Shown one piece after another: positions 5,226 to 7,694 of a DNA stretch of 42,149 nt. The notes beneath the pieces were generated by a model. The model did not search any database. It was not told where the DNA came from and saw only the letters and a list, made by a program, of their open reading frames with translations. Numbering within the stretch: position 1 is the first letter of the stretch; each line of letters opens with the position of its first letter. The stretch comes from a bacterium (GTDB lineage Bacteria > Bacillota_I > Bacilli_A > RF39 > UBA660), in NCBI GenBank assembly GCA_030525085.1, contig JAUNFK010000009.1, positions 1 through 42,149 on the forward strand. The letters run 5' to 3'. The position numbers and the translations under genes are program-made.

Positions 5226-5252
5226 TTAGCACTTACTATTGACAAGTGCTAA
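5226..5252 (+). promoter_or_regulatory. CIRCE operator (HrcA binding site)
   Basis: Inverted repeat TTAGCACTT - 9 bases - AAGTGCTAA. The family consensus is TTAGCACTC-N9-GAGTGCTAA; here the last base of each arm is changed symmetrically, so the dyad is perfect. It covers the -35 box of the hsp20 promoter, where bound HrcA repressor would block polymerase. Confidence 0.9.
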
Positions 5253-5293: not shown

Positions 5294-5689
5294 ATGAATT
5301 TAATCCCAAGAAATTTTTTATTTGATGATGATTTGGAGGATTTCTTTGTAACCAAACCTAGTAAAAGAGGTGAAATGAAATGTGATATTTATGAAAAAGA
5401 TAATAAATATTATATTGAATTAGATGCTCCAGGTTTTGATAAGAAAGATATCAATATTGAAGTAAAAGATGGATACCTTACAGTAAAAGCTCATAAAAAA
5501 GAAGAGAGCAAAGATGAAAAGAAAAATTATATTAGAAAAGAAAGATATTATGGGGAATATTCAAGATCATTTGCTTTAGGTGATGTTGATATCGAAAATA
5601 TAGATGCTAAGTTTGAAAATGGTATTTTAAATATTACCGTTCCAAAGAAAGAAATCCAAGAAAATAAAAAATATATTGAAATTAAATAG
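5294..5689 (+). CDS. hsp20: Small heat shock protein, Hsp20/alpha-crystallin family
   Basis: An ATP-independent holdase chaperone of the cytosol that binds unfolding proteins under heat stress. The protein is 131 residues, normal for the family. A short N-terminal arm (MNLIPRNFLFDD) precedes the alpha-crystallin domain (about residues 30-120), with the typical 'ELDAPGFDKKDINIEVKDGYLTV' region and the 'FENGILNITVPKKE' ending. A second ATG at 5285 is in frame, but the AGGAAG binding site (5279-5284) abuts it, whereas it sits nine bases before 5294; I prefer 5294. Its promoter overlaps a CIRCE operator, so HrcA regulation is very likely. Confidence 0.95.
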   Translation: MNLIPRNFLFDDDLEDFFVTKPSKRGEMKCDIYEKDNKYYIELDAPGFDKKDINIEVKDGYLTVKAHKKEESKDEKKNYIRKERYYGEYSRSFALGDVDIENIDAKFENGILNITVPKKEIQENKKYIEIK

Positions 5690-5712
5690 ACTAGCTAAAT
5701 GCTAGTTTTTTT
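5690..5712 (+). terminator. Rho-independent terminator after hsp20
   Basis: Stem ACTAGC (5690-5695) / GCTAGT (5701-5706), loop TAAAT, followed by T residues to 5712. Confidence 0.85.
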
Positions 5713-5739
5713 GTAGAACAAAAAAGTATAAATATTAAC

Positions 5740-5767
5740 TGGACACGGGGGGGGGTTGTTATATAAT
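5740..5767 (+). promoter_or_regulatory. Poly-G tract in a promoter spacer: probable phase-variable promoter
   Basis: -35-like TGGACA (5740-5745), then a 16-base spacer made of C, nine G (5747-5755), TTGTTA, then -10 TATAAT (5762-5767). A run of nine G is highly unexpected in such AT-rich DNA, and I saw no other G or C run of this length in the window. Slipped-strand gain or loss of a G would change the -35/-10 distance through the 16-18 base optimum and so switch transcription of the downstream surface-protein gene. The mechanism is known from other bacteria; its use here is inferred. Confidence 0.75.
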
Positions 5768-5792
5768 AACTATAGAATGGTAGGAAGTATAT

Positions 5793-7670
5793 ATGAACCT
5801 GGAAGTTAATATAGATAAAAGAAAGAAAAGCCTTAAAATATATTATGGATTATTGATAACTGTTGTATGTATAATTGGAGTCTCTTTTGCTTGGTTTAGA
5901 TTATATTTAAGTCAAAGTGATAATAATAGTATAGTAACTAGAAACTGTTTTAGCACAACACTTACTGAGAGTACATCAAAAATTGAGTTGGCTGACGCTT
6001 TCCCAATAAATGATGAAGAGGGATTAAAACAAGAACCGTTTTCTTTTACTTTGACAAATAATTGTGAGGGCTATGTTAATGCAACAATTACGTTACTAAG
6101 TGAGTATAGGACAATTACTGATAATTCCTACTTAAAAGATAATTATATAAAAGTAAATTTTTTTGAAAAGGAGATAATAAGTAAAGAATCGTTGATTCTT
6201 AGTGAGTTACCTTTAGAAAAAATTGAAAAAGAAGAGGAGGGCTATGTACTTAAAACAATTGGATTGAAGAGTAACGAGACAAAATCATTTGATTTAAGAT
6301 TGTGGTTAGACTCAAAAACAACAATTGAACAAGGGTTAAATAAAGTTTGGAAAGGGAAAATAGTTGTCAGCGTTGTGGCGTCATTTCCTACATTAAGTGA
6401 TGCAATATTAATGAATAATGAAGTTGTTAATCCTCTTACAGTTCCAGGAAGTGAAGTGAGTGCCCATACTTTAGACGATGTTGCCACTCAAAAAATGAGT
6501 GTTTCTTCAGAATATCAAAATTATTATGTGACGTATGCTACCGGATGGGAAGCGAATGGGACAAAATTTAATTTGAATGGAGCAACTGTTACAAGTGAAA
6601 CATATGCTAATTCGTATTCTGAGTTGGTAGGCAAATATTTGCCATATAGTTCTTTGTCAAGTGCTGGTTCGAGTACTGCAGGAACTATGAAATCTACGGA
6701 GGGGTTGAACAATGTATATTATGTTGTTAGTGCTAATCCTGATAGTTTTATTTATAAAACTTTAGGTTCTACTAAAAATACAACAGAAGCACTTTTGGCA
6801 AGTACGGAAGATGATTATGGTACATCATATTATTTTAGAGGTGCAGTAAAAAATAATTATGTGGAGTTTGCAAATAAGTGCTGGCGAATTGTAAGAATTA
6901 CAGGAAAAGGAGATGTTAAACTTGTACTTCATAATAATAATTTGAATAACTCCGTAAAACCTTGTTCCTCTATATATAATGGTGAAACTGTATCATTTGG
7001 CACGAGTTCGATTTTTAATAACGGTAATAACGATAATACGTATATGGGATTTATGTATGGAGAAATGAGAGCTAGTAATTATGCTGATACGCACGCTAAT
7101 GTAAATAAAAGTGCTGTACTTGCTACTTTGGAAACTTGGTATAAAAATAATTTAATTTCATACGAAAGTAAACTTGCTGACACTGTATGGTGCAATGATA
7201 AACAAACAGTTGATAGTAGTAAAGATTTGGGGTATGGGGCAAATGGATCAGCTTATGGTGTATTTAATAGAATTCATACTAGACGAACCTCTAGCTTAGT
7301 GTGCTCGGTGGATAATATGGGTGGAAAACTATCTAAGTTTACGGTAAATGATACTATAAATGGAAATGGCAATTTAACGTATAAAATTGGATTATTAACA
7401 GCGGACGAAATTGTATTTGCAGGATATGTTGATGGTTTTTTCAATACTTCAACATATTTATTAGAAAATGCAAGTGGAAGTCTTTGGTGGACTATGTCAC
7501 CATATGTTGTTTATAATGGTACGGCTTATATTATGTATGTAATTGATGGTTATTTAGGAAATATTTATACAACTTATAGTAGCGGTGTGCGTCCATCGAT
7601 TGCTTTAAATTCTGATGTTGTTATATCTGGTGGAACAGGTACATCAGAAGACCCGTATATTGTGCAATAA
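5793..7670 (+). CDS. Large exported surface protein with DUF6273-like C-terminus, phase-variable promoter
   Basis: The protein is 625 residues. A short basic tail is followed by one hydrophobic segment (about 16-36) ending in SFAWFR, which resembles the SipW-type signal of TasA/CalY-like exported proteins. A beta-rich region follows (about 40-200), then a Ser/Thr/Asn-rich central part and a C-terminal domain (about 350-620) with CWRIVRI, LLTADEI, LWWTMSP and GVRPSIALNSDVV. These are the hallmarks of DUF6273/FGE-like surface domains in gut Firmicutes, and the end GTGTSEDPYIV is also typical of them. No LPxTG motif is present. TAGGAAG (5781-5787) supports the ATG. Probable function is surface display or adhesion, inferred. 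A poly-G promoter and a terminator isolate it as a single-gene unit. Confidence 0.8.
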   Translation: MNLEVNIDKRKKSLKIYYGLLITVVCIIGVSFAWFRLYLSQSDNNSIVTRNCFSTTLTESTSKIELADAFPINDEEGLKQEPFSFTLTNNCEGYVNATITLLSEYRTITDNSYLKDNYIKVNFFEKEIISKESLILSELPLEKIEKEEEGYVLKTIGLKSNETKSFDLRLWLDSKTTIEQGLNKVWKGKIVVSVVASFPTLSDAILMNNEVVNPLTVPGSEVSAHTLDDVATQKMSVSSEYQNYYVTYATGWEANGTKFNLNGATVTSETYANSYSELVGKYLPYSSLSSAGSSTAGTMKSTEGLNNVYYVVSANPDSFIYKTLGSTKNTTEALLASTEDDYGTSYYFRGAVKNNYVEFANKCWRIVRITGKGDVKLVLHNNNLNNSVKPCSSIYNGETVSFGTSSIFNNGNNDNTYMGFMYGEMRASNYADTHANVNKSAVLATLETWYKNNLISYESKLADTVWCNDKQTVDSSKDLGYGANGSAYGVFNRIHTRRTSSLVCSVDNMGGKLSKFTVNDTINGNGNLTYKIGLLTADEIVFAGYVDGFFNTSTYLLENASGSLWWTMSPYVVYNGTAYIMYVIDGYLGNIYTTYSSGVRPSIALNSDVVISGGTGTSEDPYIVQ

Positions 7671-7671
7671 T

Positions 7672-7694
7672 TAAGCCTCTTTGTGGCTTTTTTT
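7672..7694 (+). terminator. Rho-independent terminator after the surface-protein gene
   Basis: Stem AAGCC (7673-7677) / GGCTT (7685-7689) with a seven-base loop, followed by T residues to 7694. Confidence 0.75.

Follow-up and report, generated by a model that had tools for sequence, protein, structure and literature searches.

Promoters of near-identical sequence with a run of G in the spacer were found in related uncultured, mostly gut bacteria, in up to about 43 copies per genome, and they are probably random on/off switches for the genes that follow them. One such promoter lies in the window, the stretch of 42,149 nucleotides that was analysed, and it was here that the initial annotation had proposed an individual switch. 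The genome-wide family of such promoters is a larger finding than one switch. The best explanation, considered a likely one, is a slippage promoter of the porA type that is present at many loci, which together form a repertoire for lectin-like surface proteins.

The sequence at 5740-5767 was as claimed in the initial annotation, namely TGGACA, a 16-base spacer with nine G and TATAAT (Table 1), and TATAAT was found 25 bases before the ATG at 5793. The G9 tract at 5747-5755 was also confirmed as the only such run of G or C in the window, where no other run exceeds five; a first-order Markov model predicted 0.004 runs of nine or more G for a stretch of this size. The number of promoter-like sites in the window was not above chance (25 against 23.5 in shuffles). 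Among these sites the poly-G promoter scored 11/12, and a higher score was obtained only for the hsp20 promoter. The gene for the surface protein stands single, flanked by the Hsp20 gene and an ABC transporter gene. As hsp20 ends in a terminator-like stem-loop, the poly-G promoter drives a single-gene unit of its own. A CIRCE-like perfect inverted repeat, TTAGCACTT-N9-AAGTGCTAA, was observed at 5226-5252, where it overlaps the hsp20 promoter (TTGACA-16-TATAAT), and is a probable HrcA operator.

Table 1. Coordinates of the poly-G promoter, its gene and the neighbouring terminator-like structures in the window
Feature	Position	Strand	Remark
Intrinsic-terminator-like stem-loop ending hsp20, upstream of the poly-G promoter	5688..5713	+	
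-35 hexamer TGGACA	5740..5745	+	TTGACA in most paralogous modules
G9 homopolymer in the promoter spacer, preceded by C at 5746	5747..5755	+	
TTGTTA between G9 and the -10 hexamer	5756..5761	+	
-10 hexamer TATAAT, spacer 16	5762..5767	+	TATAAT or TATACT kept across paralogous modules
Leader with Shine-Dalgarno-like GGTAGGAAG (aactatagaatggtaggaagtatat)	5768..5792	+	Block recurs before paralogous genes
625-aa N-terminally anchored protein with C-terminal DUF6273-like domain, ATG at 5793	5793..7670	+	One of about 24 paralogs
Intrinsic-terminator-like stem-loop 3' of the surface-protein gene	7673..7693	+	

The genome to which the window belongs as contig 14 (G000) is an assembly of 942 kb in 32 contigs, about 85% complete. 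Four runs of eight or more G were observed on both strands of this genome against 0.57 expected from a first-order Markov model, and all four were part of the same promoter module, each in front of a paralogous protein. The module consists of tattaacTTGACAc-Gn-ttgttaTATAAT, a leader with tagaa.ggtagg, and ATGAA. A chance homopolymer was ruled out by this excess and by the shared position of the runs in a promoter, and an accidental promoter match was ruled out by the conservation of the whole block across the paralogs. A looser pattern search revealed a module on contig 8 whose tract is interrupted (G7-A-G2, spacer 17) and a copy on contig 13 with a degenerate tract position; a copy on contig 11 has G4 and only a gene remnant downstream. 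The spacers were 16 or 17 in the five modules retaining a tract, and 16 in the window module. A tract is present at five of the approximately 24 paralogs, and the remaining paralogs have ordinary or unrecognised promoters.

A membrane helix at the N-terminus and a conserved domain of about 300 residues at the C-terminus are common to these paralogs. For the window protein a helix was predicted at residues 3-42 by a low-confidence model (two-sequence prediction, mean pLDDT 35), and the claim that the tract precedes an exported surface protein agrees with this hydrophobic N-terminal helix, which would anchor the product. In the module-rich genomes 45 of 46 ORFs downstream of modules had a hydrophobic N-terminus, compared to 211 of 728 background ORFs (29%); in a mixed set of matches from genome contigs the number was 62 of 93. 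Judged from their sequences, the products would be anchored or exported, with a predicted topology that exposes them at the surface. The DUF6273 label of the initial annotation was right, but marginal: the window protein scored 19.3 bits against DUF6273 (PF19789), below the cut-off of 23.5, and only five of 22 paralogs matched at E<=0.01, the best of them at C31:86381 with 25.1 bits. A resemblance of DUF6273 to the C-type lectin fold has been reported, as has its use as a hypervariable binding target in phages (PMC10743442). The role of the proteins is presumably lectin-like ligand binding, possibly with variation under host or phage pressure. The C-terminal domains vary by genus, being DUF6273-like in the genus of the window and weakly FGE-sulfatase-like in genome G116, and the modules of G118, G124 and G125 are followed by short signal-peptide proteins. 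A SipW-dependent signal peptide was seen in one paralog only, below the cut-off. No relatives were found on the viral contigs searched, and no match was found among the solved structures searched. The sole reverse transcriptase match in G000 is retron-St85-like (C32:7895-8467, L374) and has no template or variable repeats nearby; a diversity-generating retroelement was rejected on these grounds.

The module was found to recur not only before paralogs but also in sister genomes, where the initial annotation had suggested looking. Genome G003 (JAUNFS01), of the same genus, carries the module five times with identical core flanks, the tracts being G9, G7, G9, G7 and G9, in addition to an interrupted tract, GAG6; its spacers were 16 and 14 despite the identical flanks. 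Tracts of G8 and G6 were found in the modules of G002, also of this genus. In a sample of the family the strict module was present in 13 of 290 genomes and 9 of 150 genera, whereas a reversed-pattern control gave no match in the 290 genomes. The distribution is patchy, yet dense in the genomes that have the module. Examples are Lapin-030 bin56 (G117; G145 of the family), Lapin-032 bin119 (G116) and Lapin-026 bin106 (G118; G234 of the family). In G117, 84 eight-base and 41 nine-base G windows correspond to 43 runs of eight or more G, and all 22 distinct contexts of nine or more G that were read were the promoter module. G116 has 23 modules and G118 about 17, among them those at C20:1137-5112, where five consecutive short signal-peptide genes each have their own G7-G8 promoter. 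Tracts of G5-G11 and spacers of 15-21 were seen in other genomes. Modules within about 120 bases of contig ends were observed in G116 on contigs C13, C17, C19, C30, C41 and C48, as well as on C55, C73, C74, C78, C117 and C127, indicating that the assembly breaks at modules.

The length of the tract differs between otherwise near-identical promoters, G7 and G9 in G003 and G8, G9 and G10 in G116 and G117. Taken together, G116 and G117 have 47 modules with near-identical flanks, of which 37 have G9, six G8 and four G10. Their spacers were 16 in 38 modules, 15 in five, 17 in three and 14 in one. The segment 5' of the tract differs in length only once among the 47, and the segment 3' of it is one base shorter in four, in some cases by a substitution into the tract. 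Five orthologous sites could be compared between the two genomes, where the DNA upstream is 82-94% identical over some 0.9-1.4 kb. The tract was identical at three of them, another had a T-to-G substitution that left the spacing unchanged, and one had G9 with spacer 16 in G117 and G8 with spacer 14 in G116. Both comparisons show that the change in length is real but not wild, and that the modal spacing of 16 is strongly kept. This mode lies one base off the usual optimum and one to two bases off poor spacing; a switch would fit this position, but so would plain conservation. At the orthologous sites compared, G117 was observed to have TTGACG or TTGACC where G116 has TTGACA; on these sequences, the difference is concerted evolution of promoters within a genome.

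A DnaA-box-like element was found upstream of a part of the promoters. With at most one mismatch and on either strand, TTATCCACA occurred within 45 bases upstream of the -35 hexamer in 24 of 164 distinct modules, compared to 1.7 in shuffles (maximum 6) and 2 of 131 in a control stretch further upstream. Exact boxes numbered six against 0.14 expected; these counts are inflated by paralogs, but the exact boxes fall in four independent groups (G038/G118, L110, L112 and L158). The form TTWTCCACA, on either strand, lies mostly 10-16 bases upstream of the -35 hexamer in G003, G038, G118, L110, L112, L158, L095 and L168. Sites with TCCACA followed by TTGACA were poly-G promoters in 11 of 12 cases in G118 and in six of seven in G003. 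The element is absent from the window module.

A wider scan of 84,980 species genomes with the pattern TTGACA-N-G7-N4-12-TATAAT gave at least 116 stretches. Among the matches listed were many Bacilli and Clostridia from the rabbit gut, in which the promoters are followed by lipoproteins or signal-peptide proteins, one Nomurabacteria genome with two copies, and Phascolarctobacterium RGIG3958 (L120, L121) with two copies, G8 and G9. An inverted repeat was observed upstream of the L120 and L121 promoters, with stems that differ between the copies. The high-GC matches of the scan may be due to chance.

An explanation for these observations would be that G9 makes up the part of a sigma-70/A-type promoter that varies in length. 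Replication slippage would add or remove G and thereby shift the spacing of the -35 and -10 hexamers around 16 bp, to 17 bp with ten G, 15 with eight and 14 with seven, and transcription of the surface protein would go up, down or off at random. With the module reused before many paralogous anchored proteins, cells would come to display differing combinations of them. We infer slippage as the cause of the length differences, as well as their reversibility within a population and their effect on transcription. From the general optimum of 17 bp, ten G would give a stronger promoter, as had been suggested for the window. What stands of the proposed ON/OFF promoter is a real poly-G in the spacer, its recurrence and the length differences among near-identical modules. 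MutS1 is intact in G000, so slippage should be lower, and loss of mismatch repair was rejected as its cause. The predominance of G9 and the small share of paralogs in G000 with a tract, five of about 24, also speak against the switch.

The strongest rival holds that the poly-G spacer is a fixed regulon element, a structural feature or binding site common to co-regulated promoters of surface proteins, in which the spacing of 16 bp is selected and there is no functional switching. It would fit the predominance of G9 in the 47 modules of G116 and G117 with their near-identical flanks, the three unchanged orthologous tracts of five, the intact mutS, and the fixed place of TTWTCCACA upstream of the -35 hexamer at nearly only poly-G promoters in G003 and G118. 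However, no part of the module varies in length as much as the tract, ten of the 47 being off the mode where the 5' segment varies once, and neither the two spacer lengths of G003 nor the range of tracts and spacers in other genomes would be expected of a fixed element. Furthermore, mutational instability is to be expected of G9 in AT-rich DNA, and the spacing could be kept by other sequence. This rival was judged unlikely.

The shared promoters could also be a by-product of gene duplication or of promoter gene conversion, with the G run hitch-hiking and having no role. The concerted evolution seen in the -35 hexamers of G116 and G117 would agree with it, but other low-GC Bacilli and Clostridia also have poly-G spacers in front of surface proteins, with flanks that are unrelated and a spacing kept at 14-21 bp, and decay would be expected of a neutral G9, as is seen in the degenerate and G4 copies; such an origin was considered very improbable. 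Even smaller is the chance that the module is a recombination site at which silent and expressed cassettes exchange their promoters, with the crossover marked by the G run. Several modules of G116 are indeed found no more than about 120 bp from the end of a contig, and promoters are homogenised within genomes, but each gene inspected has a complete promoter of its own, and assemblies also break at short repeats that are shared.

The switch explanation is of interest because phase variation at many loci seems to be mostly a feature of pathogens. Here, 5 to about 43 poly-G promoters were found per genome of about 1 Mb in uncultured bacteria, many of them from rabbit-gut metagenomes. Such repertoires would extend to lineages without a known link to disease, a question that is testable with existing metagenomic reads. 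They would also provide a route of diversification at the level of expression for DUF6273 and similar lectin-like domains, which phages diversify by retroelements. A more far-reaching proposal, put forward tentatively, is a transcription-only phasome, in which one poly-G cassette, homogenised in each genome, would independently switch tens of lectin-like surface proteins in genome-reduced bacteria not known as pathogens, with as many as about 43 G-tract promoters in one genome of 1.2 Mb. No report of phase variation in bacteria of the RF39 type was found in the literature searched, though this does not prove its absence.

In Neisseria meningitidis porA, a poly-G between the -10 and -35 hexamers sets the spacing by its length, with an optimum of 17 nt (PMC7864442). 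The window promoter is very similar, with a G homopolymer in a sigma-70 spacer, a predicted surface protein downstream and a spacing near the 17-bp optimum. However, porA is described as a single locus, whereas the module of these uncultured Bacilli is multiplied over paralog families, with up to about 43 runs of eight or more G per genome; and porA switches, whereas here we infer switching from assembled sequence with one assembly per species. Several paralogous promoter poly-Gs, differing in length between and within isolates, are known from the tpr genes of Treponema pallidum, and tprL gave more signal with eight G than with ten (PMC7864442). As here, several paralogous surface proteins each have a promoter poly-G, but organism and proteins are unrelated and the position of the poly-G relative to the -35 and -10 hexamers differs. 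The vlp genes of Mycoplasma hyorhinis, clustered lipoprotein genes in a reduced low-GC genome, form a multigene surface family in which each gene has a poly-A in its promoter spacer. They share with the present case the multigene surface family, the homopolymer in each promoter spacer and the reduced low-GC genome, and differ from the poly-G, the dispersed genes and the other protein families found here. The C-type-lectin-like variable proteins of phages have a DUF6273 ectodomain, to which the window protein has a marginal match, but are diversified by retroelements (PMC10743442), whereas in the bacteria studied here the variation would be in expression.
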